This document shows positions 35,566 to 63,976 of a DNA stretch of 64,000 nt, one piece after another. Origin of the DNA: Onthophagus taurus (lineage: Eukaryota; Arthropoda; Insecta; Coleoptera; Scarabaeidae). A program made the translations under genes and the position numbers. The notes beneath the pieces were generated by a model. That model made no database searches. It had not been told where the DNA came from and saw only the letters and a program-made list of their open reading frames with translations. The DNA lies in contig NW_027248941.1 in the NCBI RefSeq assembly GCF_036711975.1, positions 2,170,001-2,234,000 on the forward strand, written 5' to 3'. Within the stretch, counting starts at the first letter, position 1. Each line of letters begins with the position of its first letter.

Positions 35566-37499
35566 AACTCTGGAAAAGTGGATGATTTCAACGCTTGAGT
35601 GAAAGTTTCACGATTTATCGTGAGGTCTCAAGATATTACCTTTATTTTTTTAACAATTTATTATTTATATTACCTATTACCACGATTTTATTACAAAAAT
35701 AATATAATAATTGGTGTTAATAAAATCATAGCATTTTCAATCCAAATTGTAGGTTACTGTAAATTTCTCTGTTAGTTACATCTATTCGCCGCTAGATGGC
35801 GCTAAGAAATTACTTAAACTAATATTTCTTTTCCTTTTAATTATATCACTTTTATGTACAAACGTTGTCTAAACTGTTTTACTAGAATCATATGCCTATA
35901 TGTAACACGTATTATTAAAATTGAGTGATTTTTAAACAAATCTCACGATTTCGGCAACCCTGGCTTGAGTAAACACAAAAATAAATAAATAAAGTTTGAC
36001 AAAACTCTCAGTGAAATAATTAGTAAAATTATCTTTTAACTTGTAGTTAATACGAAATAAATTAATTAACCAGTTTTTGTAATTGAATTATACGTAATGA
36101 AATTGTAATAACATAACCAAACAAAAAAAAATACCCCAAATTAATCGTATAAATAATAAACGAATAATAATGAAATTGAAAATTATAACTTAGCTTATCT
36201 TGTAGATTATTGAAGTTCTTGGATAAGGAAACTTGGACTCTTCAAAAGGAATCGGTAACTATGATTCTTGATTGGATTGGAATAACTCTTCGGAATAGTA
36301 AACTGGGTTAATTGGATCAGGAACCACTTAATTTTCTTGTTTATTATTAAGGTGAATAATTTTAATTCTAATAATCTTAATTAACTTAGTAAATAAGTTT
36401 ACTATTTTTGAGGTTATGCCATTATGATGATTGACAAGTAACCTAACTTTTGTTTTTTAAGTTGATCGCGGATAAAATTAGCGTGCACTCCTCATCACGT
36501 TCGAAATCACACTAAAATGTACCAGTTTCGTTTGTTTCTTGCAAGAACGTTTCAAATAACGTATTCTGATTGGTTAATTTTTCAACTTGAAATTCGTATT
36601 TAAAATTTCTCCGGTATAGCCAACTTTGAAATGTCAAATATCACCAATTAAATTTAATCAAAAATTATTAAAATTTCTATTTTAACTATATTTATGTATG
36701 AAATGTTGTAGTTTTGTTGCTTTAACTTTGTTTGTGCTAATTTCGAAACATTTTCTTTTAGATTTCAACATCCAGCTTCAAAAATACTTTCAAATATTTA
36801 ATCTACAGATTTTCGTCAAATTTTGCATCAAAACTCCCATATGATAGATGATTTTCGTTCTTGACATGCTAAGATTATCGTTTTCAATCGTTTCTACCGG
36901 AGAAATATGAAATGTAATAAGAAATTAATGAAAAATGAAATTTGAGGTTATGTCACTGTCAAAATTTTACAAAATTAATTCGTATTAACTTTACATGGAT
37001 TAAATACAATAATAAACGTAAATGGGCAATAATAGATAATGAATTCTAACTTATTTACAACATTTTATTAATACAAAATCAAATTTTTATAATTATTATT
37101 CGTAACTTCACCTACGATTATTCAAAATTTAAATAATAAATAACTTGGTTTGGTTATATCATTACAAAATGAAACAAAATAATGATAGTTATTCGTAGTT
37201 TTATTTAATCTCTTAAAAAATAAAACTTTATATAGTATATATACAATTATTTGCGATAAATTATCTCATAGAAACTCTTTTATTATTAATTAAATCAATA
37301 TAATCACAAAATAAACTCATTATTATGATAACCTAAAAAAATATTAAGTTTTTTTTTATTTAAATTTATTTGATACAGAGAAAACCAACCTTAATTGCTA
37401 TAACTGCACTTTTCTTCCATAAAAAAAAACTAATCATTCGGAAGAACCTTTTAATTGCACTCTTAAACTTAACTCAAAACTTAAGCTTACATTTATTTA
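35566..37499. other. Intergenic region between USP32 array and the 37.5-kb gene
   Basis: Mostly single-copy AT-rich sequence. It holds the best CTCF-like site of the window at 35789-35803, scattered AGGTTATG motifs (about 36411 and 36949), and a small hairpin around CACGATTTATCGTG (about 35611). The right end must contain the 3' UTR of the minus-strand gene. No coding region is seen. Confidence 0.5.
35789..35803 (+). promoter_or_regulatory. Strong CTCF-like site
   Basis: CCGCTAGATGGCGCT fits the long animal CTCF consensus (CCnnnAGRKGGCGC) at nearly every constrained position. It stands in single-copy sequence between the USP32 repeat array and the next, oppositely oriented gene, a position suited to a boundary element. 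Occupancy is inferred only. Confidence 0.5.
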
Positions 37500-40400
37500 T
37501 TATTTATTACAATCGTAATTTATTCGCGGATAAAACTTAAAAGCCGGAACGACGAAATTCGCGATGTTAATTTCCGCTTTATTATTATCACTTTTTTCAT
37601 CTTTATTATCATTTTTTTCACCTAATCGATTAAATTGCGCTTCGAACTCATCCAAACACTCCAACTTTTTCGGTTCGAACCCCAAAGGACGCCCTCGAGG
37701 TGGAGTTGCCTCAAAACTCAAACTTTTCGCTTTTAACATGTGTCGCTTAGGAATCTTTTTTGTTGTCTTTGAGGGTCTTTGAGTGGCTAATAATAATTGA
37801 TGTTGGTAATCAATGGGCGCCTTTTCGTACGGATCTTCCACCAATAAGTTCATATCGAAGGATTCTTCGCTTAACGGTAGCGAAATATCCATGGGGGAAC
37901 TCGATGGGGCTTCAATATCGATCGTTTTCTCTTCGTTATTCGATAAAAAAACATTAAAATCGCTAACTTTTTTCGATAGCGGCTCCTTAAAGTTAAAAAA
38001 ATTCTCTTTTTCGTCTAATTTAACGCGTTTTACCGAAATATCTTCTTGGTAGATGGGGTTTAAAAATCGCTTATCGATGGGAACCGCGTCATCTTTAACA
38101 AATCGGTTCAAATTAACGTTTTGAATCAACTCATTTTTGATGTCGTATAAAACTTTATTCTTTTTCGTCGTTTGGATTACAGCGGGGACCATTTTTTCTT
38201 TGTTGCGATCCTCAAAAACGAATTTTTTCATGCCACATTTATCCGGAGTGCTGTAAACCCACTGCGATTGAGGCACCAATGCCACAGCGGCCGAAGCGGC
38301 CAAATTATTATCATCGTAATCATCAGGAAGGGATCGCTTCGTACTCATTTTTGATGTTAATAAAGGTAAAGAGGGGGATTTCCCGTCGAGGATTTCGTTG
38401 AAACTTTGCGTGGTTTGACGAACTTTCAATAAATACGATTTTTTTGAGTTGCTTCGAGATGGGTTGATATCAAGAAGGAGGTTGGCGCAAAATGAGATGT
38501 TAATTGGAGTTAAATCTTTGTTTTGAGTTAACTAAAACAAAAAAAAAGTAAAAATTATGATCAAATTTAATCGGAATCATAATCTACACGAAATTCCCGT
38601 TAAAATGAGCCCAAACTCGATGGGGTTATCTCAAAAAACAACTAAGAAAATCAACTTCCGGTTGTCACTTTTTTGAGGTTATGTCAAAATTAAATTTTTG
38701 AATATCTCGCTTGTTTTATGAGATAATCGAGTCGAGTTTGGACTCAATTTGAAGCATTTTTAATTCCCCACACGATAGTAAATCAAAAAAAATAAATAAC
38801 CTCACTTTATAAACGCCAAATCAATATTATTTGATATTTTGAACCATCTTGATTAATACATAATAACGAAGTTTTATTTTTAGATCTAATAGCAACCCGC
38901 GAATTTAATTTCGTTAAAATCGAATAATTTTCTTTTAATCATCCGCCATTTTGTTTTTATTTTGACAAAATTGAATTAATCCAACATCATATTCGTAATC
39001 TAGATTAAATTCCCTTTAAAATGAGCCCAAACTCGATGGGGTTATCTCAAAAAACAACAAACTTCCGCTTGTCACTTTTTTGAGGTTATGTCAAAATTAA
39101 ATTTTTGAATATCTCGCTTGTTTTATGAGATAATCGGGTCGAATTTGGACTCAATTCGAAGCATTTTTAATTCCCCGCGCGATGGTGAATAAATAAAAAA
39201 CGTAACCTCACTTTATAAACGTCAAATCAATATTATTTGATATTTTCCGCCATCTTGATCAATAATTTTAATTGAATAATAACGAAAATCTTTATTTTTC
39301 GATCTAAAAGTACACCGCGAATGTAATTTCGTTAAAATCGAATCATTTTTATTAAATAATCCGCCATTTTGTTTTCATTATTATCGAATTTGATTAATCC
39401 AACAGCGTATTCGCAATCTACATTAAAATCCCTTTAAAATGAGCCCAAACTCGATGGGGTTATGTCAAAAAACAACAAACTTCCGGTTGTCACTTTTTTG
39501 AGGTTATGTCTAAAATTAAATTTTTGAATATTTCGGCTGTTTTTTGAGATAATCGAGTCGAGTTAGGACTCAATTTGAAGCATTTTTAATTCCCCACACG
39601 ATGGTGAATCAAAAAAAAACCTAACCTCACTTTATAAACGTCAAATCAATATTATTTGATATTTTCCGCCATCTTGATCAATAATTTTAATTGAATAATA
39701 ACGAAAATCTTTATTTTTCGATCTAAAAGTACACCGCGAATGTAATTTCGTTAAAATCGAATCATTTTTATTAAATAATCCGCCATTTTGTTTTTATTAT
39801 TATCGAATTTGATTAATCCAACTGCGTATTCGCAATCTACATTAAATTCCCTTTAAAATGAGCCCAAACTCGATGGGGTTATCTCAAAAAACAACAAACT
39901 TCCCGTTGTCACATTTTTGAGGTTATGTCAAAATTAAATTTTTGAATATTTCGGCTGTTTTTTGAGATAATCGAGTCGAGTTTGGACTCAATTTGAAGCA
40001 TTTTTAATTCCCCACACGATGGTTAATAAATAAAAATCCTAACCTCACTTTATAAACGTCAAATTAATATTATTTGACATTTTCCGCCATCTTAATAATA
40101 ACTGAATCCTTCATTTTTACTTAAAAGTCCCCCGCGAATTCAATTTCGTTAAAATTGCTTCATTTTTGATTGAATTATCCGCCATTTTGTCTTTATTTTG
40201 ACAGAATCTAATTAATACAACAACGTATTCGTAATCTACATGAAACTCCCTTTAAAATGAGCCCAAACTCGATGGGGTTATCTTAAAAAACAACAAACTT
40301 CCGGTTATCACTTTTTTGAGGTTATGTCAAAATTAAATTTTTGAATATCTCAGGTGTTTTTTGAGATAATCGAGTCGAGTTTGGACTCAATTTGAAGCAT

Positions 40401-43389
40401 TTTTAATTCCCCACACGATGGTGAATCAAAAAAAAACCTAACCTCACTTTATAAACGTCAAATTAATATTATTTGACATTTTTCGCCATCTTAATAATAA
40501 CTAAATCCTTCATTTTTACTTAAAAGTCCCCCGCGAATTCAATTTCGTTAAAATTGCTTCATTTTTGATTGAATTATCCGCCATTTTGTCTTTATTTTGA
40601 CAGAATCTAATTAATACAACAACGTATTCGTAATCTACATTAAACTCCCTTTAAAATGAGCCCAAACTCGATGGGGTTATCTTAAAAAACCACGAACTTC
40701 CGGTTGTCACTTTTTTGAGGTTATGTCAAAATTAAATTTTTGAATATCTCAGGTGTTTTTTGAAATAATCGAGTCGAGTTTGGACTCAATTTGAAGCATT
40801 TTTAATTCCCCACACGATGGTGAATCAAAAAAAAACCTAACCTCACTTTATAAACGTCAAATTAATATTATTTGACATTTTTCGCCATCTTAATAATAAC
40901 TAAATCCTTCATTTTTACTTAAAAGTCCCCCGCGAATTCAATTTCGTTAAAATTGCTTCATTTTTGATTGAATTATCCGCCATTTTGTCTTTATTTTGAC
41001 AGAATCTAATTAATACAACAACGTATTCGTAATCTACATTAAACTCCCTTTAAAATGAGCCCAAACTCGATGGGGTTATCTTAAAAAACCACGAACTTCC
41101 GGTTGTCACTTTTTTGAGGTTATGTCAAAATTAAATTTTTGAATATCTCAGGTGTTTTTTGAAATAATCGAGTCGAGTTTGGACTCAATTTGAAACATTT
41201 TTAATTCCCCACACGATGGTGAATAAATAAAAATCCCAACCTCACTTTATAAACGTCAAATTAATATTATTTGACATATTCCGCCATCTTAATAATAACT
41301 AAATCCTTTATTTTTACTTAAAAGCCCCCTGCGATTCAATTTCGTTAAAATTGCATCATTTTTTATTGAATTATCCGCCATTTTGTATTTATTTAGACAG
41401 AATCTAATTAATACCATATCGTATTCGTAACTTACATTAAATTCCCTTTAAAATGAGCCCAAACTCGGTCGAGTTATCTTAAAAAAGAACAAACTTCCGG
41501 TTGTCACTTTTTTGAGGTTATGTCAAAATAAAACGTGGGATATCTCCGCTGTTTTTAGAGATAATTGGGTCGTGTTTGGACTCAAATTAAAGTATTTTTA
41601 ATTTCCCACGCGACTATGTAGAAAGATGAAACCTAACCTCACCTTGCAAACGTCAAATTAATTTTATTCGAGCTTATCCGCCATTTTAACGCAACGTTTT
41701 GTTTTTGTTTGTATTTATTGACTTATTTTTTTTAGTAAACGTCAAATTATTTATTACCAACCATGAAAAAACAAAAAATTTCATTGAAAATTTTTTGTAA
41801 AGTATGGAAATCGAAAAATTTTGGAAGGAAGTAATCAAAATCATTAAAAAAAGCGAATTAATTAAATGAATTAACCCAAAACATAAGAAATAGGCGGTAA
41901 AAATCGAACATAACCTAAAAATTTTAAAGTTTTAGATCGATATCTCTGTGTAAAAGTATGATTTTAATCCCGAATGGGGTTTAATAAGGCGTTAAGACTC
42001 ACCTTTTTGTAATTAACTCACTTAGAAAACTCCAAGTTTGAAAGAATTGGGGATAAATTAATCTTTTACATAAAATGAATCAAAATGAATGTTGCGTTTT
42101 CCACCAAACCCAATTAAAATCGCTTAAACAAGCTTATTTAAATCGAATAATCAAAAAAAACATCAAAAAAGATAATAAATAAAGGCGCTAAAAAAATGAA
42201 ACTAACCTCAAAAAAAAAATGACAACTAAAAACGTCAATATCTCCCAAATAATTAATCGGGGGTTAAAAATTCTTTTAAATTATGAAATATTCTTACCTT
42301 TCTTTCATAAATCGATTGTGATTCCCCCCTAATTTCAGCCCTTTTCGGTGAAACCCCCCAAAGACTGCAAAGTCCAACTTCGTTTTCCTCGTTGCTAAAA
42401 CGAACTTCTCCGTCTTGTTTGGCCGCTTTTGGGGTTGGATTTTTGGTGGAAACCTCGCGGAAATAATCGGCGATGTCCGCGTAAGTTTTCTGGCGGCCCA
42501 CCAATTTCTTTTCGGGCAAAATTCCGGCGGGAAACACCACGTCCGAATTTGCCCGCCCAAAACGTTCGTTGCCCTCCTCGTCGAACGAAGACGACGATTT
42601 CGGTGTTGCGTTAAAGTTGTTTAATAACGCGTGTAAATCTTCGCTTAATACGAGCCTACCGTGACCAAAATCTAATTTAAATAAGGAATAATTTAAAAAA
42701 ATTTTTTTTGACAATTACATTTTTTTAGGTTATATCGTTAAGAAGTGTCAAATTATTTGGGTTAAATTAATTGTGTAAATTTTTGTTTAGTTAATATTAA
42801 TTAAAAATTTAATAAAAACTTACTAATTTTGGAATTGATTTATTATTTTTATTTTCGAGGTTAAGTAACATTACCGTTAGAAGTTTGAAAACCAACTGAT
42901 TTCCGCTGATTTCCTTCTCTCAACTGCTGATCGCAAGAGCGGTCGGTAAAAAAGATTTTTTTACCCCCACCCAATCATAGACTTATTACTAAGAATAGAA
43001 AGAGATGAAACGCCTAAACAACAAAGACACCAATAGGAAGTCGCCGTCTTATTGGTGCGTTTAAATGTTTTGACACCTAAATGATTATTTCAAACTTGAT
43101 TATTTTTACATTAATAATTTTTAAATAAAACTAACCTGTTTTATTGTTGTTTCGAGTCGAAGTTGATTTAAGTCCGCTCGAAAAAAACCCAATTGGAATC
43201 TAAAAATAAAACGAAAATAAATTTGATTTAAAATAAATTCAAAAAAAAATTAAATACCGTTACTCTCTTCGCGGCGACTCTTTTGCTCCTCCTCAACTCC
43301 ATGTTTTGGGGCTCTTTAACGTTCTTCTCGTAAATACATTTCCGATTTCGGGATGAATTCCGCTTCGTTGCGAAGGAATTTCCAACCAT
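37500..43389 (-). CDS. Unrecognised 533-residue basic, low-complexity protein
   Basis: Four exons on the minus strand, 43258-43389, 43136-43199, 42298-42671 and 37500-38531, join in phase at good splice sites. I do not recognise the family. The N-terminus is basic (MELRRSKRVAAKRV). Exon 3 has DFGHGRLVLSEDLHALL and a KKLVGRQKTYADIADYF stretch; the start of exon 4 has LTPINISFCANLLLDINPS. The long C-terminal exon is rich in K, D, S and N and looks mostly disordered. It contains KRSLPDD, DEKENFFNF (a KEN-type degron motif), TPPRGRPLGF and a closing VVPAFKFYPRINYD. A basic patch plus KEN box would suit a nuclear cell-cycle protein, but that is only a guess. The third intron (38532-42297) carries an eight-copy tandem array. 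Confidence 0.72.
38560..41690. repeat. Eight-copy ~400-418-bp tandem array of fold-back units
   Basis: The anchor AAAATGAGCCCAAACTCG occurs at about 38602, 39018, 39436, 39855, 40254, 40653, 41052 and 41450. The first three spacings are 416-419 bp and the last four 398-399 bp, so two length classes exist. Inside each unit, AATGAGCCCAAACTCGATGG…TTATCTC is mirrored by GAGATAATCGAGTCGAGTTT…GGACTCAA about 100 bp on, so every unit is an imperfect palindrome plus spacer. CCGCCATCTT and CCGCCATTTTG recur in the spacers. The array fills the third intron of the unrecognised gene. Confidence 0.9.
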
Positions 43390-53792: not shown

Positions 53793-54557
53793 AAAAAGAA
53801 CCTAAACGAACTACGATCTGTCAATTTTATTAAATTAAATTAATTAAATCGTTTTAAGTTTTTACGAAAAATGTTATTAGAAAAATTTTTGTTTTCCTAA
53901 CCTCAAAAAAAAAATTAATTAATAAATACAACCCTGTAGATTATTTCCATTTAGTAAACGATTATTAGATGAAATATACACATTCTCACATCAAATAAAT
54001 TAAGCGTTTTCTTATAATTTACCAAAAAAGATAGATTTAACCCGATTAAGAGTAAAAATTAAAATTATTAAAAAACAAGTTAACTCACCCGTTTGGAAAC
54101 CGATTTTTCGACGAGAATTTCTTCTTCCCACAATCACTTATACTTTTATTGAAGTTTTAAACGATTTTTTAATATGAAAAACTTTTTTATACGCACTTTA
54201 AATTGACACTGTTGACAATCAGAGGTACCAACTTAACTTTTTTTTTATTAATCCGATTTTAATGATTATTCTTTTATATTTATCGATAATTAATGTTGTG
54301 ATGATTTAATTAATTAAAATAAAGTTAAATAATGAATTTAATCAATTAAAATTAAATTATTTTATAATTTAATGTTTTAACTTTTCCCCAACTAACTTCA
54401 TTTCGTTAAAAAGTAAAACGTCAAACGCTCAAATTCAACTTAAATCATTTTTTGCCGTTTTTTTAGGCATAATTTGTGTTAACATCTAAAACATCGTAAA
54501 TTGTTGTTACCCAAGAAAAACGAAGGTATGTAACAAAAAATTTTTATTCATAAAAAC
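53793..54557. other. Convergent gap GABA-B-R2 / ALG3
   Basis: 3' UTR of GABA-B-R2 with AATAAA near 53923 and 53995, then AT-rich DNA. On the minus strand AATAAA lies about ten bases beyond the ALG3 stop. No gene is seen. Confidence 0.5.
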
Positions 54558-56057
54558 TCATTTTTGGTTCATAACTTTGTAGACACCATATAGGATGGAA
54601 AAGTGGCAAATATGCAATAAAGCGCTCGATATGTTTGTGCTGGGGTAAGTATTCCAACAAAATTCAACAACCGCTAACAACAAAAATATAATCGGCTTCC
54701 GATAAGGAGTCGAATGAACGAGGTACAACAAACTATGAAAGTACCAGCTATAAAATTGGTAATGCAAAGATCTAGCGCAAGTAATCCCGATTAAATTCGC
54801 CACAAAAAACGGCAAAACGAATAATCTAGTTACACTAGAAAAATCGACTTCCATTGTTTCTTTAATTTCTGGTTTAACTTCATCTTTTTTAATTTTATTC
54901 CTTGATTTTATTTGCCTCTCAAAGTTATCGATGAATTTTTGTTGATCCTTACTCAATTTTTCTTCCTCTTTATTAACACTTTTACTTTGTTTTAATTTTT
55001 TCCCTTTTCGAGCACCCTTTGTGTTCGTTTTTATCTCATCCAACGTCGATTTTATCGTAAAATAAGCGCTAAAATATTTCTTAACGCTCGAATAAAACAG
55101 AATTAACAACGAGACGTGTACCACTAACAACGCGACGTGGAAATTTTTATTTTCGAACAAATCCCGCGGTAAAAATCGGTAATTAACCGTCCATTTGTGC
55201 TCGAAAATTCGCCCCAAATCGAAACTTCCTTTGATGTAGCCCCAAAAATTCGCCCATAAAAATGGGGCGCCCAAAATTAATTGGACCACCCCACAAATAA
55301 AGAGGTTTAAGATGGTTTGGAGATACGTTAAGTTGGTTAAATAAGCTATTAATAAAGATGGGGCGTACAATAAGATGTTCATTTTTATGGAAACCGCGAA
55401 TGAGTACAAAATGCTCCCCAAAATCCATTGATTCCTTAAAAATAACGTTAAGGATAAGTAAAAAAAGAATACGGCGAAAGGATCGTTGAATAAACGCAAA
55501 ACGTAAATGGAATGTATCCGGTATGATGTAATTGTAGATAAAATTAATGCATACGGAGGAATTTTTTGAGTTTTCTTGTAAATTTCAAATGTTATGTAAC
55601 TTTGTAGGATATAAAGCGATAAAAAAATATATTGAGCTAATCGGATGTTCTCCCCTTGGTTCGTTATGTAATAAAGTAACGAATAAACGTAAACAAAACC
55701 AGCCGGGTACACCAATGGGCCTGTATCACCTAAAAAAATCAAAAAAGGAGTTAAAACCTTAAATCGGGCACTAAATTTACCTTTTAATTCGCTATAATCT
55801 AACGTTCCATTTAAAACCCCTCCAACTTCTTGCATATAAGCAATCCAATCGATTTCTGTGTATTTAATCCTTTGGATTATAAAGATATTTAGAAATACCT
55901 CGAATATTAACAAAGCCCAACACGTTATGTACAATTTTTTGGGGTTATAAAGTAAATCTTTGATAAAATCCATGGTTAAGTAGCGTTTTAGGTCGAACGA
56001 CATCGGCGAAGCTTTCCTGACCCGATTAACGGAAGTTTTATTTTTAGTTTGAGCCAT
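54558..56057 (-). CDS. ALG3: Dol-P-Man:Man5GlcNAc2-PP-Dol alpha-1,3-mannosyltransferase
   Basis: Two exons, 55781-56057 and 54558-55729, flank a 51-nt intron and give 482 residues. ALG3 (Drosophila l(2)not/Not56, family GT58) adds the first dolichol-phosphate-mannose-derived mannose to the lipid-linked N-glycan precursor in the ER lumen. Landmarks are YTEIDWIAYMQEV near residue 68, DTGPLVYPAGFVYVYSLLYY, YRIHSIYVLRLFNDP, KMNILLYAPSLL, EHKWTVNYRFLPRDLF and ARSLHYQFYSWYFHSLLYL, among about ten membrane helices. A lysine-rich loop of about 75 residues (KGARKGKKLKQSKSVNKEEE and onward) interrupts the C-terminal third. The intron lacks stops and keeps frame, so retention would insert 17 residues between ELKG and DTGP; spliced, the site reads ELKGDTGP, as conserved. 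Confidence 0.95.
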   Translation of the reverse strand: MAQTKNKTSVNRVRKASPMSFDLKRYLTMDFIKDLLYNPKKLYITCWALLIFEVFLNIFIIQRIKYTEIDWIAYMQEVGGVLNGTLDYSELKGKFSARFKVLTPFLIFLGDTGPLVYPAGFVYVYSLLYYITNQGENIRLAQYIFLSLYILQSYITFEIYKKTQKIPPYALILSTITSYRIHSIYVLRLFNDPFAVFFFYLSLTLFLRNQWILGSILYSFAVSIKMNILLYAPSLLIAYLTNLTYLQTILNLFICGVVQLILGAPFLWANFWGYIKGSFDLGRIFEHKWTVNYRFLPRDLFENKNFHVALLVVHVSLLILFYSSVKKYFSAYFTIKSTLDEIKTNTKGARKGKKLKQSKSVNKEEEKLSKDQQKFIDNFERQIKSRNKIKKDEVKPEIKETMEVDFSSVTRLFVLPFFVANLIGITCARSLHYQFYSWYFHSLLYLVHSTPYRKPIIFLLLAVVEFCWNTYPSTNISSALLHICHFSILYGVYKVMNQK

Positions 56058-57205
56058 TTTCGAAGGGTTTTGCCAAAAAATTCACTACTTCAAAAAGTGA
56101 GGTTAAGTTGTCATTTTTTTAATATTATTTTTTATAAGATTAATATGTAATGATTTATTTATAAGAAATGAAATAAGGAAATTGGAGTTATTCAAGTTTA
56201 AAAAGGGGGTTTAATTAATTTAGAGTTAAATTAATTTAAAAAAATTGTGTGTTTTAATTAATACATAAAAGATGGCGCTTCTATCTTGTTATTTTTTTAT
56301 TCATTAATTTTGTTATTTCCTCTGAAGTATTAATTAATAATAATAATTGATTTAGGTAATTAGCGTGTTTGGAATGCGAATTTAAATTAATCATTTAATT
56401 TTAAATTCAATAATTTAAAAATTATTAGTTTAATTAGTTGTCAATAGATGGCGGTGTTTTAACCGGAAAATTTAATTTAAGTTTTTAATGCAAATAATTG
56501 TTATTTATAGGTGTATTAAGATGATTTCGATGGGGAAAATTGGTTTAGAGGCGATTTATTAATTAAATGAATAAAGGGGGAAGAAAAATTTAATTCCACC
56601 ATCATTATTATAGTTAGTGGTGGTGAGATGGCGCTGTTTTCAATGCGGTAAGAATCTTTCCGATTCCTTAAAAATTAAACTTATAACTTTTAAAATGTTA
56701 AATTGAATTAAAATAATGCGTTCTAGGTGGATGCGGGGGCCCCTTTTTGCTATGGATCATTGTAATCTTGGTGTATCTTCGGTAAGTACAAACAAATTTA
56801 AAAAAAAAATTCTGGTGATTAAGGTTATGTTTTTTGTTGATTAAAAACTTTTAAAAGATTCTTAATTATCACCTTTGAGCGTGGTTTAACATGATTTATG
56901 AGTTAAATTGTTGATTTTAGTGCTAATTTCGAACAATTTTCCCCCAAATTTTTATTAAACAAAAATTGAGGTTATGTTGACTTATTTTGGTGAGTTATTT
57001 TTAATTTAATAATTATTTTTGCTTTTTTAATTCAATTTTAATCACGAAATGTAACTTTTTAGTTAATTTAATCAAAATTAATTAATTAAGTATTAATTAG
57101 TCCCCATAGATGGCGGTGTTTCAGCGGGAAATTTAAAACTAAAATTTTTTCAAATTAAATTTTTTATTAATAAACCATTTTAATGCAACAAATTAGGGTC
57201 GTTTT
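56058..57205. other. Intergenic region with three AGATGGCG motifs and one more at its right edge
   Basis: AT-rich, no convincing gene. AGATGGCG occurs at 56270, 56446, 56626 and 57108. The copies at 56446 and 57108 share an extended context, ATAGATGGCGGTGTTT then (C)CGG(G)AAA-ATTT. A pseudo-exon pattern (ATGGCGCTGTTTTCAATGCG followed by GTAAGA, and a second piece at 56728-56781 before GTAAGT) encodes at most about 26 residues and is not called. Confidence 0.5.
57108..57134 (+). promoter_or_regulatory. Composite AGATGGCGG / GCGGGAAA element (left)
   Basis: ATAGATGGCGGTGTTTCAGC is followed by GGGAAATTT. The first part resembles a CTCF core and the second an E2F site (GCGGGAAA). A matching element at 58221 lies in the same orientation on the other side of the two small secreted-protein genes. 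Confidence 0.4.
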
Positions 57206-57550
57206 TTAATGATGAGCTCTCCGCTGAACGTGTCCAGGGGCGTTAATCAAAAATTTCTCCTCATTTCCGTCATATTTTGAGTCTAAAATCAATTTTTTGA
57301 TTATTAATGCCAATTTTTGATAAAAAATTAACTTACAAGCATCGCGTTGGTTTAAATTCCGCTTAAATTGGAGCGATTTTCCCGTTAAACTCTTTTCCTG
57401 CGATTTTTTATGGGTTTTTGCTAAAAAAAAATTATTAATTGGGTAATCTATTTCGGTTATGACAAGTTTTAAATCGATTTTATACTCACCTTCCATGGAG
57501 TAAGCAAAAATTAACGCGAAAACTATGAAAAAGGTGAATTTGAAGTTCAT
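57206..57550 (-). CDS. Small secreted protein, 73 residues, unknown
   Basis: Three exons, 57490-57550, 57337-57420 and 57206-57282, splice at GTGAGT/TTTTTTTTAG and GTAAGT/GATTTTAG sites. The start is the ATG at 57550; the TTG in frame upstream is not used. Residues 1-20 (MNFKFTFFIVFALIFAYSME) are a clear signal peptide. The mature part is basic, with QFKRNLNQRD (a possible dibasic cleavage at KR) and an end reading INAPGHVQRRAHH, where RR is another candidate processing site. There are no cysteines. It could be a peptide precursor or a small secreted protein; I recognise no family. A TATTTAAG box lies about 47-54 bp upstream of the ATG. Head to head with the gene at 57826. Confidence 0.68.
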   Translation of the reverse strand: MNFKFTFFIVFALIFAYSMEGEYKIDLKLVITEIDYPINNFFLAKTHKKSQEKSLTGKSLQFKRNLNQRDACKLIFYQKLALIIKKLILDSKYDGNEEKFLINAPGHVQRRAHH

Positions 57551-57825
57551 TTTGTCCAACGTGAGAGGAAAATTAAAGTTTTATTTGTGAGGGGCTTCTT
57601 AAATACGCTTAAATATTAATTAATTATGTTTTTGCTCAATTTGGAATTCCTTTTTAAGTGGAATTTTGTAATAAATTATTTTATTATCTCGAAAAATGTC
57701 GGGAAATGTTATTTTTTCCAAAGAAAAATGTTTTAAGGCTTTTAAAGCGGAATTGTTTAGATAACAACAATATTTGCCGAGTTTTACTCGATAAACAACG
57801 CTTTGTTTTAGTTGTTTCGTTAAAA

Positions 57826-58183
57826 ATGATGTTTAAGTTGACGGTGTTGGCGGTTTTGATCACTTTTTGTGCTTGTAATCACAAAATTCGGGACAATAAG
57901 AGTCATCGGCACAAAATTCGGAGTAAGTATGAAATAAAATTGATGAAATTAACTAAAATTTTTGTTTTTAGATGATTCCACGCCGAATATCTTTTATATT
58001 GAGGGCGATAAATTAATCGCAGCTTCAAATAATGATGTTAAACATCATATTAATCAGATTAAAAATGACTTGGAAGTCGATCCGTATCAAGATTTAGAAA
58101 AATCTAAGCGGAAATCATCGTATAAAAGGATTTATAAACCTTTTCCGATTACAAAACCTGAAATTAATAAGAAAATGATTTAA
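57826..58183 (+). CDS. Small secreted protein, 102 residues, unknown
   Basis: Two exons, 57826-57922 and 57972-58183, joined at GTAAGT/TTTTTAG. MMFKLTVLAVLITFCAC is a signal peptide; the next ATG codon could also start it. The mature part has HKIRDNKSHRHKIR, a TPNIFYIEGDKLIAASNNDV stretch with a second-half DLEVDPYQDLEKS, then basic KRKSSYKRIYKPFPITKP. Candidate dibasic sites are KR and KRK. No family is recognised. Like its divergent neighbour it has a first exon that is nearly all signal peptide and ends in phase 1, so the two could be distant relatives or simply share a common secreted-protein layout. The ATGs are 275 bp apart, so the promoter region is shared. Confidence 0.68.
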
Positions 58184-58220
58184 TTTTTAATTAATTAAGA
58201 TAGTGGGGTTGGTTATTGAT

Positions 58221-58248
58221 AGATGGCGTTGTTTGTGGCGGGAAAATT
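58221..58248 (+). promoter_or_regulatory. Composite AGATGGCG / GCGGGAAA element (right)
   Basis: ATAGATGGCGTTGTTTGTGG runs into CGGGAAAATTT. It has the same order and orientation as the element at 57108 and the weaker one at 56446. It lies 38 bp beyond the stop of the 102-residue secreted protein. Confidence 0.4.
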
Positions 58249-58422
58249 TGTGTATTTGAATTAATTAACAACATTAAATTTATTTTTTGAAACATTTAAC
58301 ACTGATAAATGTTAATTAATTAATGAATTAATCAAACAGCTGTTGGTTTTTTGCTCGAATTTTCTTTGCTTGTCATTAAGCTGGATTGGGTCCCCTAAAA
58401 AATGGGAATTAAATAAATTTAA

Positions 58423-61400
58423 TTAAATTAAACATTTTTTTACCCGATAATTTAATCCTCTGCGGTTATTTCCACCCAAAGAAAACAAACCCAGACTTAA
58501 ACTCGACGCTGAATCATACCCTGAAGGATGTTCGCGTTTTTTGCGCCTCTTAACACAAAAAGCGCACGATTTTCTCATCTAAAATAGTCGAAATAAATCT
58601 ATTTTATAACACCATAGAAAAAAATTACTTGTTTTTGAAAAATTGATGTTGTTAAGGTGTAAAGTACTGGATTTAGCGCCGAATTAATCGGTAACACAAA
58701 AATCGCCAACCAAGCGTACAAATATTTCGAAATATCGGCCCCTAATAACGCGGCTATTTTAACGATGATAATGGGGACCCAACATAAACAATCGGTTAAT
58801 ACGATTATTCCGAAACGTTTCGCCACTTTATCTCTGTCTTTGCTTTGTTGGGTTGATCTACAAGCTAATCCGCTTGTTTCAATTTCATGGATCATCCTGG
58901 CGTAAGCGTAAATGATGAAAACTAAAGCCAATGAGTTAATGATTACAAACATAACCGTTGAATAAATCCAACCCTGCAAGAAAACAAAAATTAATTAGAT
59001 TAATACTAAATAAAAAATTAAAATTACCTGTTGAAAAGGTTCATGGACGTGTAAAGGTAAACAAACTCCATTGGTGTTATAAAAATCTTTAAAATAATCT
59101 GGATCGATTTTTGATAGTGGTAAAAATGCGATTAATCCCGCTATAAACCATAAAATTAATAATTGTAGCGTTGCGGTTTTCGCTGAAACTTGTTTCCTTG
59201 CTAAAGGTTTTGTGATTGAGATGAATCGATCCCACGTCACTAGTGAGAGGATGAATACTGATGAAACTGACGATAAAGTGCTTAAGAATCCTGGAAATTT
59301 TTTAAAATTATATGTGATTGTATTGAGATGCTGATTATTAACCGCAAATGTTGCAAGTTTTGCTGTGCCTCCAAGCGGATTCGTGCTGGACGTAAACGCC
59401 GCGGTATTTCATATCGACAATTGCGATTATGAATAAATATAAGCCCATTAATAAGTCGGAGAGGGCTAAGTTTTTTATGTAAAGTGAGTGGACGACGTTG
59501 TTGGTTTTTGCTAAGAATCTACCGATTAGGACTAAAAGGTTTCCGAAACAACCTACTGTTGCTATTATCCAAACGCTAGAAAATAATAATAATAATAACT
59601 CAAAAAATGGTGGTAGTCCAATAACTAATTACTACAATAAATGCTCAAATACACAGGATTAAAAGGATGTAGAAAATATAGAAAACGATTTTTTGATAGA
59701 TATTAAAATGATCTTAATAAGAATCAAAAATGCTTTCATTTGATACCAAACATGATATATTTGGGTTAAAAAATAAAAAAGTTAGTTAGGAACTGTCAAA
59801 TGTCAAAATTAAATATAACGATTTTTTGATAAATATTGAAATGATCTTAATAAGAATCAAAAATGCTTTCATTTGATACCAAACATGATATATTTGGGTT
59901 AAAAAATAAAAAAGTTAGGAACTGTCAAATGTCAAATTTAAATATAACGATTTTTTGATAAATATTGAAATGATCTTAATAAGAATCAAAAATGCTTTCA
60001 TTTGATACCAAATATGATATATTTGTGTTAAAAATTAAAAAAGTTAGGTTATAAACTGTCAAATAATCGCCATCTTTTTTTTTTGTAAAAATTAAGATAT
60101 CTCGATAACGGTTAGAGATAAATAAGTCAAGTTTGGGTTCATTTTAAAGCATTTTTAATTTTCTGTCCATTTATGTTAAAAAAGAACACCTTCATAGCCA
60201 AAAAAATTTTCGTTTATATTTAATTTTGACATTTGACAGTTTATAACCTAACTTTAACCCAAATATATCGTGTTTGATATCAAATGAAAACAATTTTGAC
60301 GTGTTTTACGGTGATTGTTAGTGGAAATAACATTCCTAGAGTTGCATTATGTAATATAGGAGAAAACATATTAATTTTGACATTTGACAGTTTCTAACCT
60401 AACTTTTTTATACTCAGAGTTGAACCCAAACCCAACTTATTTATCTCCAACCCTTATCGAGATATTTTAACATTTAGCAAAAAAAAAAAGGCGATTATTT
60501 AAAATTTGACAGTTTCTAAACTAACTTTTTAATTTTATTTTTTAACCCAAATATATCATGCTGAAACATTGAAATGATCTTAATAAGAATCAAAAATGCT
60601 TTAATTTGATACCAAACATGATATATTTGGGTTAAAAAATAAAAAAGTTAGGAACTGTCAAATGTCAAAATTAAATATAACGATTTTTTGATAAATATTG
60701 AAATGATCTTAATAAGAATCAAAAATGCTTTCATTTGATACCAAACATGATATATTTATGTTAAAAATTAAAAAAGTTAGGTTATAAACTGTCAAATAAT
60801 CGCCATCTTTTTTTTTGTAGAAATTAAGATATCTCGATAACGGTTAGAGATAAATAAGTCAAGTTTGGGTTCATTTTAAAGCATTTTTAATTTTCTGTCC
60901 ATTTATGTTAAAAAAGAACACCTTTATAACCAAAAATTTTTTTCGTTTATATTTAATTTTGACATTTGACAGTTTATAACCTAACTTTAACCCAAATATA
61001 TCGTGTTTGATATCAAATGAAAACAATTTTGACGTGTTTTACGGTGATTGTTAGTGGAAATAACATTCCTAGAGTTGCATTATGTAATATAGGAGAAAAC
61101 ATATTAATTTTGACATTTGACAGTTTCTAACCTAACTTTTTTATACTCAGAGTTGAACCCAAACCCAACTTATTTATCTCCAACCCTTATCGAGATATTT
61201 TAACATTTAGCAAAAAAAAAGGCGATAATTTAAAATTTGACAGTTTCTAAACTAACTTTTTAATTTTATTTTTTAACCCAAATATATCATGCTGAAACTT
61301 TGAAATGATCTTAATAAGAATCAAAAATGCTTTAATTTGATACCAAACATGATATATTTGGGTTAAAAAATAAAAAAGTTAGGAACTGTCAAATGTCAAA

Positions 61401-63976
61401 ATTAAATATAACGATTTTTTGATAAATATTGAAATGATCTTAATAAGAATCAAAAATGCTTTCATTTGATACCAAACATGATATATTTGTGTTAAAAATT
61501 AAAAAAGTTAGGTTATAAACTGTCAAATAATCGCCATCTTTTTTTTTTGTAAAAATTAAGATATCTCGATAACGGTTAGAGATAAATAAGTCATGTTTGG
61601 GTTCATTTTAAAGCATTTTTAATTTTCTGTCCATTTATGTTAAAAAAGAACACCTTTATAGCCAAAAAAATTTTTCGTTTATATTTAATTTTGACATTTG
61701 ACAGTTTATAACCTAACTTTAACCCAAATATATCGTGTTTGATATCAAATGAAAACAATTTTGACGTGTTATACGGGGATTGTTAGTAGAAATAAAATTA
61801 AAACTAGAAACTTCATATTAATTTTGACATTTGACAGTTTCTAACCTAACTTTTTTATGCTCGGAGTTGAACCCAAACTCAATTTATTTATCTCCAACCC
61901 ATATCGAGATATCTTAACATTTAGCAAAAAAAATGGCGATTATTTAAAATTTGAGCTTACTTTATAACTTTTTATTTTTTAACCCAAATATCATGCTGAA
62001 ACATTGAAATGATCTTAATAAGAATCAAAAATGCTTTAATTTGATACCAAACAAGATATATTTGGGTTAAAAAATAAAAAAGTTAGGAACTGTCAAATGT
62101 CAAAATTAAATATAACGATTTTTTGATAAATATTGAAATGATCTTAATAAGAATCAAAAATGCTTTCATTTAATACCAAACATGATATATTTGTGTTAAA
62201 AATTAAAAAAGTTAGGTTGGGAACTGTCAAATGTCAAAATTAAATATAACGATTTTTTGATAAATATTAAAATGATCTTAATCAGGATCAAAAATGCTTT
62301 GATTTGATACTAAACATGATATATTTAGGTTAAAAGATAAAAAAAGTTAGGTTAGAAACTGTCAAATAATCGCCATTTTCTTTTTTGTAAAAATTACGAT
62401 ATCTCGATAACGGTTAGAGATAAATAAGTCGAGTTTGGGTTCATTTTAAAGCATTTTTAATTTTCTGTTTATTTATGTTAAAAAAGAAACACCTTTATAA
62501 CCAAAAATTTTTTTGAAAAACTTAAGTTTAAAAATTCACGCAAAATGTCAATATGATATGCGTTGCTTAGTTACCCGTTAGTTACCCTTAGTTACCACGG
62601 CCATTTTGGATTAAAGTGATGTGATTGGCTCATATTATTTTAGCGGGAAATTTGATGAATTCAAATTAATTTTTATTTACCTCGTCCTCAAAACGGGATT
62701 ATGCAACAAATGTTTACTACTCGAGATACCATCATCTTTCGGGTTGCAATCTTTTAATAAAGGAACTGCCTTGCACATTTCAAATCTCCTAAAATATCTT
62801 TAAAAAAAATTTTTTAATTAATTTAATTAATTTTATTAATTTATTTTTTTTTATTTACACGTGTTCTAGTTTTTTTAACGGGGCAAATAATTTTTGGTTG
62901 AGGTTTTCATAAAAATTTCCCTCCAAATTCCTAAAATCATTAAAAAAAAATTTTCTTTTATTAAAATATTAATTAATAACGTCTTACAATGAAACTAAAG
63001 CTTCGAGGTCTTCGAATACCCCCGATTCGAAGTTTCGCAACGAATTTCCGTTTAAAGTTCTGCAACAACAGAATCGAGTTTTTAGCTCCGAATTCTTATT
63101 CAACACTTTAAGTAACTTACAAAGATGTTAATTTCGAGAGATTCCGAAATGTTCCTTTATATAAATTTTCTAAATTATTCTCACCTAGATCTCTTCATAC
63201 ATAAATAAATAAATAAATTTTTAATTAAATAAATAAAAAAATTTTTTGAAGTTAAACTCAAAGCGATTTTAACCAAACAACCTTGTTATGTTATGGTGGC
63301 TCTTTTACAACTAGTCTCATAAAAGAACTCGTATAATCCCGAATAAAGTATAATCCCGGAAGTTTCCTTCACAATTTCGAAACGAAATGTTTTATTAAAC
63401 CCAAGAGGCACGCGTTTATTCGAACTTTTAGAAAAACTTTATTATATTTTATTTGATTTTTTTTGTTTTCATATAAATTTGAGTACTTTTTTTTATTAAT
63501 TTATTATTTTTGGTTGATTCGCGTCACGCGAGTTATAAAAAAGTTAAATTGTCGTGGTTGAAGTGGTTAAACATTAGATAGCGTGATGGAAGTGCAATAA
63601 AAGCGATACGATTTATGAAATAGGGAACGTGAGAGCTTTTTATGGCTTTTATAATGGGGGAAATGTTTTTTTTTTGATTCATAAAATCACTTTGAGTTAT
63701 TTAACCCTTACAATGTTGTTAATTGAGGTAATTTTGAGAAACTCAATCTCTCAATTGACACGATTTTGTTCCCGATTAAAGATAAAACGCTTAATGGGAG
63801 CTCGGAGAATGTGTTTTTTGCGATTTTAATTATTTTATTTCCTCGAATGTATCTAAAAAATTTTTTTTAAATTTAATTTAATTAAAAAATTGTTTAATAC
63901 TCACAATTCGTTTAAATTTTGTAGATTTATAAACGTTTCTTCTTGGATTATTTCGATTTTATTGAAACTTAAGTCG
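58423..63976 (-). CDS. Relaxin-receptor-type LRR G-protein-coupled receptor (C-terminal part)
   Basis: Nine exons of a gene that continues off the right edge: 63905-63976, 63121-63192, 62988-63059 and 62859-62930 (each 72 nt, one leucine-rich repeat, identical phase), 62681-62788 (hinge), 59343-59575, 59028-59290, 58629-58973 and 58423-58578. LRRs read like DLSFNKIEIIQEETFINLQN. The hinge has CKAVPLLKDCNPKDDGISSS, matching the C-x-P…DGISS hinge of relaxin receptors (RXFP1/2; insect Lgr3/Lgr4). Helix 1 starts VWIIATVGCFGNLLVL; helix 3 ends VTWDRFISI, so DRY is DRF; helix 6 is IIVLTDCLCWVPIIIVKI and helix 7 has LPINSALNPVLYTL. The tail is short and basic. Such receptors bind relaxin/Dilp8-like peptides. 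Lgr3 versus Lgr4 is not resolved, and an LDLa domain would lie outside the window. The acceptor of the 63121-63192 exon (ATGAAG) is weak. Confidence 0.9.
59690..62520. repeat. Higher-order tandem repeat with inverted halves, LGR intron
   Basis: A unit containing AATGATCTTAATAAGAATCA, GATACCAAACATGATATATT and AACTGTCAAATGTCAAAATT is repeated in direct and inverted form. The larger unit, anchored at CTGAAAC (60561, 61292, 61995), has periods of about 731 and 703 bp. Within it, TTTGACATTTGACAGTTTAT…AACCTAACTTTAACCCAAAT is the inverted partner of the GTTAGGAACTGTCAAATGTC side. ATCTCGATAACGGTTAGAGA and GGGTTCATTTTAAAGCATTT link it distantly to the AAAATGAGCCCAAA fold-back family. It fills most of the 3.1-kb intron between hinge and helix-1 exons. 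Confidence 0.85.
63193..63904. other. LGR intron between LRR exons
   Basis: Single-copy AT-rich sequence between two 72-nt LRR exons. I searched the minus strand for another LRR exon of the same phase and saw none that was convincing. Confidence 0.5.

Follow-up and report, generated by a model that had tools for sequence, protein, structure and literature searches.

In the interval between ALG3 and a relaxin-type receptor gene of Onthophagus taurus, we find two short head-to-head genes, referred to as A and B. They are probably two orphan genes for secreted peptides that share a promoter, accompanied by a locus-specific cluster of boundary-like words. The locus lies in the window, a 64,000-nucleotide stretch of contig NW_027248941.1 (assembly GCF_036711975.1, positions 2,170,001 to 2,234,000), and coordinates below are those of the window. 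In our preferred reading, A and B are real, single-copy, lineage-restricted genes for secreted basic peptides, B encodes a cationic propeptide, and the nearby elements are boundary-like words. We hold this reading tentatively, at slightly less than an even chance. If it is correct, the locus would provide two unclassified secreted peptides, one of them with a clear candidate processed product, and a compact shared promoter. Since insects commonly carry orphan secreted genes, such a pair would be only moderately surprising.

The gene pair and its neighbors

The interval is bounded by ALG3 (54558–56057, minus strand), assigned by Pfam PF05208 at E 4.7e-130, and by the last exons of a minus-strand receptor gene. 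Three open reading frames of the receptor gene have rhodopsin-type 7TM Pfam matches (7tm_1), one of which is below the cut-off. For one of these frames, relaxin receptor 1 (RXFP1) is the best solved relative at E 5.4e-26, with the next best match at 2.9e-7. Upstream in the gene, a frame at 63711–63866 matches LRR_8 with 27.5 bits (cut-off 27), and further upstream, beyond the window end, an LDLa frame scores 25.4 bits (cut-off 24.1). With LDLa, LRR and rhodopsin-type 7TM parts, whose exons we infer to form one gene, the neighbor is classed as a relaxin-type LGR. A sequence-only reading of the locus had placed a relaxin-type receptor gene next to the pair, and the LDLa, LRR and relaxin-receptor-like 7TM exons bear this out.

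Gene A lies on the minus strand. Exon 1 (57490–57550) encodes a signal-peptide-like start and ends in phase 1 at GTGAGT, exon 2 (57337–57420) is basic with a KR inside, and exon 3 (57206–57282) carries the stop codon. The donors and the first acceptor are of the ordinary type. The acceptor of the third exon is weak, with 5 pyrimidines counted in the 12 bases before TAG, and fails the acceptor rule of our scan. Splicing of both introns (69 nt, 57421–57489; 54 nt, 57283–57336) would yield 73 aa. Neither intron holds an in-frame stop and each has a length divisible by three, so that the frame also stays open without any splicing (114 aa), and keeping intron 2 yields a 91-aa form. These two retained-intron forms each contain one cysteine. 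The start and the last 24 residues are common to all forms, and A would give a secreted peptide that is short and basic whether intron 2 is removed or kept. The predicted mature part of the spliced model has a pI of 10.2, a net charge of +7.1 and no cysteine, the signal peptides of both genes being called by a crude rule and their cut sites set by hand.

Gene B lies on the plus strand and encodes 102 aa in two exons, separated by a 49-nt intron (57923–57971) with a donor and an acceptor of the ordinary type. Exon 1 (57826–57922) provides a signal-peptide-like start and a basic spacer of net charge +5, ending in phase 1 at GTAAGT. Exon 2 (57972–58183) encodes an acidic middle stretch (net −6), a single KSKR, a cationic end of 23 residues (net +6) and the stop. 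Its predicted mature part, cut by the same manual procedure, has a pI of 9.8, a net charge of +8.2 and no cysteine.

The start codons are separated by 275 bp (57551–57825). This interval is the presumed shared promoter, in which TATTTAAG occurs twice on the A strand (at 57598 and 57608), and the co-regulation of A and B is presumed from this geometry. The head-to-head arrangement and the 275-bp spacing had been described from the letters of the window, together with signal-peptide-like starts, phase-1 first exons, basic mature parts and dibasic sites in both products. All of these features stand. As A and B show no alignment at E up to 100, we rejected the idea that they are mutual duplicates.

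The strict spliced-ORF scan asked for an ATG, a signal-peptide-like start, a GT[AG]AG[TA] donor, an intron of ~39–115 nt, a pyrimidine-rich acceptor and a product of 60–160 aa. By these rules, drawn up like the loose ones after A and B had been seen, the window has two loci (A and B), 20 other genome loci (200 kb) have none, and 60 second-order Markov-resampled windows have one (mean 0.017). The scan recovered A solely in its two-exon, intron-2-retained 91-aa form; the 73-aa form did not pass. A version with a stricter acceptor returned the same two window loci. The loose two-exon scan gave six loci in the window, namely A, B, two exons of what we take to be a GABA-B receptor gene, and two others. 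It gave 19 in the 200 kb and a mean of 2.03 (0–5) in 30 resampled windows. Head-to-head pairs within 600 bp were found in 0 of 60 (strict) and 0 of 30 (loose) resampled windows.

Codon usage of the two genes is equivocal. Gene A, at 0.073 bits per codon, exceeds the 90th percentile (0.007; median −0.178) of 214 open stretches in a sample of contig C1, which may include real genes, and gene B, at −0.026, falls below it. Training exons range from −0.135 to 0.288 by leave-one-out.

Predicted products and their class

Neither A nor B has a Pfam match over the cut-off. The weak matches of A, DUF6724 at E 0.051 and YxzE at E 0.18, are far below the family cut-offs. A PDB search gave no significant match, with best E values of 1.7 and 0.66 for the two proteins. 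In the genome, A matches itself alone, and B matches itself and one further place at E 6.1. The earlier description of a divergent pair of unknown secreted-peptide genes is plausible in the light of the Pfam, PDB and genome searches. An AlphaFold model of B exon 2 from one sequence is weak (pLDDT 73, pTM 0.27) and shows the 23-aa end without regular secondary structure; a fold search with this model found no significant structural match (best E 3.6).

A signal peptide, an acidic pro-region, a convertase site and a cationic end form the layout of many insect antimicrobial and cationic effector precursors. The charge pattern and the KSKR of this layout are present in B and not in A, with the signal peptide called by the crude rule. 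The product of A has no RXXR-type site and no acidic pro-part like that of B. B thus resembles a cationic-peptide precursor and most likely encodes a propeptide, in which the furin-type KSKR would release a 23-residue cationic C-terminal peptide. We speculate that this peptide is an effector because the layout matches processed cationic peptides of that kind.

NF-kB and GATA sites were both set aside: the strict NF-kB word GGGRNWYYCC was found 0 times, the loose word GGGRNNYYYY 3 times against 1.6 expected, and GATA 8 times against 7.0 expected. A non-coding RNA in 54500–60500 was likewise rejected, as the one Rfam match there is far below its gathering score.

Elements E1–E4 and their core word

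Full copies of the element, all on the plus strand, are located at three positions. E1 (56444–56473, core at 56446) lies between ALG3 and gene A, E3 (57106–57134, core at 57108) lies 71 bp past the gene A stop and antisense to A, and E4 (58219–58249, core at 58221) lies 35 bp past the gene B stop in the gap between B and the LGR. A looser plus-strand copy, E2 (56626–56652), is found in the ALG3–A gap, and a bare plus-strand AGATGGCG core is found at 56270–56277, upstream of ALG3. The elements at 57108 and 58221 have the same order and orientation, as described in the sequence-only reading, which overlooked the copies at 56446 and 56626 and the bare core. The elements exceed chance, but the proposal of a self-contained module marked off by them is not supported, given these further copies towards ALG3, beyond the pair, and the 3043 genomic copies of the core; the row of elements is not a simple bracket around A and B.

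Just after E2, we notice a GC-richer stretch (56640–56800), whose plus strand carries an ATG at 56716 followed by a GTAAGT donor (~56782). Its 181-base surroundings match themselves alone in the genome and have no Rfam match. It is possibly the 5' exon of a further plus-strand transcript.

The full element pattern, AGATGGCGNTGTTTN{1,8}CGGNAAA, occurs at three places in the 290.8-Mb genome, all of them here and on the plus strand. The core followed by NTGTTT has 53 genomic copies, 4 of them at this locus, against 4 copies of the reversed pattern. When GGGAAA is also required, two places remain, the pair at 57108 and 58221. In the window, AGATGGCG occurs 18 times against 0.42 expected, and 9 of the 18 lie by inspection in two sets of spaced repeats. 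Five of the nine non-repeat sites fall within 1951 bp (56270–58221), all on the plus strand (p ~0.0005 under uniform placement). The flanking 80 kb of contig C16 contain 18 more, many in repeats. A small 120-kb sample of C1 contains 2 against 1 reversed word, so AGATGGCG is not enriched there.

The two sets of spaced repeats lie on the minus strand at 39248–41289 and 60068–61539. Their units each carry AAGATGGCG, followed by words such as TGTCAAA or TTTGACAG. Similar AAGATGGCG...GTCAATGTCA repeats are seen in the neighboring loci L018 and L019.

E1 and E3 are 79% identical over 43 nt. By eye, the elements resemble one another mainly in the core and the CGGNAAA block, and beyond ~30 bp their flanks look no closer to each other than expected of AT-rich DNA. 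CGGGAAA occurs 4 times in the ALG3–LGR interval (56058–58422) against 0.33 expected, twice inside E3 and E4; one copy (57700) is roughly central in the interval taken as the shared promoter. An E2F-like reading was dropped: the word TTTSSCGC has five copies in the window, two of which are in E3 and E4, and E1 is without it. We rejected a transposon-end reading here, as no opposite-strand core lies within the interval. Opposite-strand copies of the core were seen at L006 and L007, among eight other loci read, so that such a reading may apply elsewhere.

Across the genome (e.g. at L001, 1100–2264), ATAGATGGCG has 3043 copies and its reversed form 243 (~12.5-fold), in differing flanks at the loci read and with some copies in arrays. 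C follows 1908 of the 3043 copies, against 23 for the reversed control, a ratio that is too favorable since the control has one extra CpG compared with the word itself. PMC8336396 uses CNNNAGNNGGCGC as the Drosophila CTCF consensus and PMC5739101 prints ATGCAGCTAGATGGCGCTC as a CTCF site; AGATGGCGC fits both. Under the strict CNNNAGNNGGCGC rule, none of E1–E4 matches and the sole window match is at 35790–35802; E1 and E3 match apart from the last C. E1–E4 are thus better regarded as CTCF-like words than as CTCF sites by the strict rule. With this excess, ATAGATGGCG is a candidate motif for boundaries or promoters in this genome, and a countable one in a non-model species. Among the titles and abstract openings listed by full-text literature searches on the core word, insect CTCF and bidirectional promoters, none describes the element, which does not imply its absence from print.

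Alternative readings and comparison with known systems

In the preferred reading, A and B would be transcribed in opposite directions from the shared 275-bp interval. B would pass from signal peptide through basic spacer and acidic pro-region to KSKR, where cleavage of the secreted product would free the 23-residue cationic peptide as a putative effector. The ATAGATGGCG elements would not be part of the peptide genes; they would be instances of a CTCF-like boundary word that occurs throughout the genome, three to four copies of which were multiplied or kept along the gene borders from ALG3 to the LGR and may act as boundaries there. This reading draws support from the scan rarity, the head-to-head geometry, the codon score of A, and the charge layout and KSKR of B. 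The lack of a significant homologue, the 23-aa end without regular structure in the single-sequence model of B exon 2, the local full elements, the genome-wide core excess, the C that mostly follows the core and the Drosophila CTCF consensus support it as well. We count against it the codon score of B, the post hoc scan rules, the scan's rejection of the 73-aa model of A and the lack of RXXR in A. As to the boundary role, E1–E4 miss the strict CTCF consensus, local duplication alone could explain them, AGATGGCG shows no enrichment in the small C1 sample, and the comparison with the reversed control is too favorable. It is quite possible that the elements are diverged copies of a locally duplicated ~30-bp stretch with no regulatory role, as the full form is found nowhere else in the genome, all elements share one orientation, and E1 and E3 are so alike. 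However, the likeness is mainly limited to the core and the CGGNAAA block between flanks that look unrelated, and the core is over-represented genome-wide in differing flanks. We regard as improbable a more elaborate scheme, in which a private composite boundary element (a CTCF-like core plus a CGGGAAA-type block) was multiplied along ALG3–A–B–LGR and isolates and co-regulates a newly arisen pair of cooperating peptides.

Alternatively, one or both frames could be ORFs that arose by chance, or genes in decay, within AT-rich intergenic DNA, and yield no functional peptide. We find this doubtful: the codon scores are middling, with B under the 90th percentile of open stretches, neither gene has a significant homologue, and loose rules yield about two such frames per resampled window, but the strict scan gave one locus over 60 resampled windows, and neither those 60 nor the 30 loosely scanned ones held a head-to-head pair. 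It is unlikely that A and B are neuropeptide or peptide-hormone precursors acting via a GPCR, possibly the neighboring LGR. Such precursors would explain the signal-peptide-like starts, the phase-1 first exons, the dibasic sites and the adjoining relaxin-type receptor gene. However, neither product has the Gly followed by a dibasic site expected of amidated neuropeptides (GK occurs once in A and is absent from B), and neither has the six conserved cysteines of the insulin/relaxin type or an insulin Pfam match. According to PMC7357564, LGR3 has a known ligand and LGR4 a presumed one, both of them insulin-like and with six cysteines. The genome carries a sizeable set of insulin-like peptides, with at least 17 insulin-family places over the cut-off on contigs other than that of the pair. 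Among the 18 places listed, 17 are over the cut-off, on contigs C11, C1, C6 and C7, with many clustered on C11 and C1. The ligand link to the neighboring LGR, raised earlier as speculation, is thus unsupported for A and B, which are without insulin-type cysteines.

Returning to the preferred reading, we compared the locus with three known systems. Like the ligands of relaxin-type LGRs (gonadulin/Dilp8 and arthropod relaxin/Dilp7), A and B are associated with an LGR of that type, in their case by adjoining its gene, but they are without the six-cysteine insulin pattern and the insulin Pfam match. The elements resemble Drosophila CTCF sites in the core AGATGGCG, in a genome-wide word mostly followed by C and in their location between genes. 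They differ in the last C, which is G in E1 and E3 and T in E4, in the first C, which is missing from E2 and E4, and in the NTGTTT...CGGNAAA part, which is outside the Drosophila consensus. In comparison with insect cationic and antimicrobial precursors, A and B have no Pfam match over the cut-off and no disulfides in the spliced models, A is without an acidic pro-part, and B has a basic spacer ahead of its acidic part. Both are nevertheless small, secreted-looking and basic like these precursors, and B resembles them in its acidic stretch (net −6), its KSKR and its 23-aa end (net +6).
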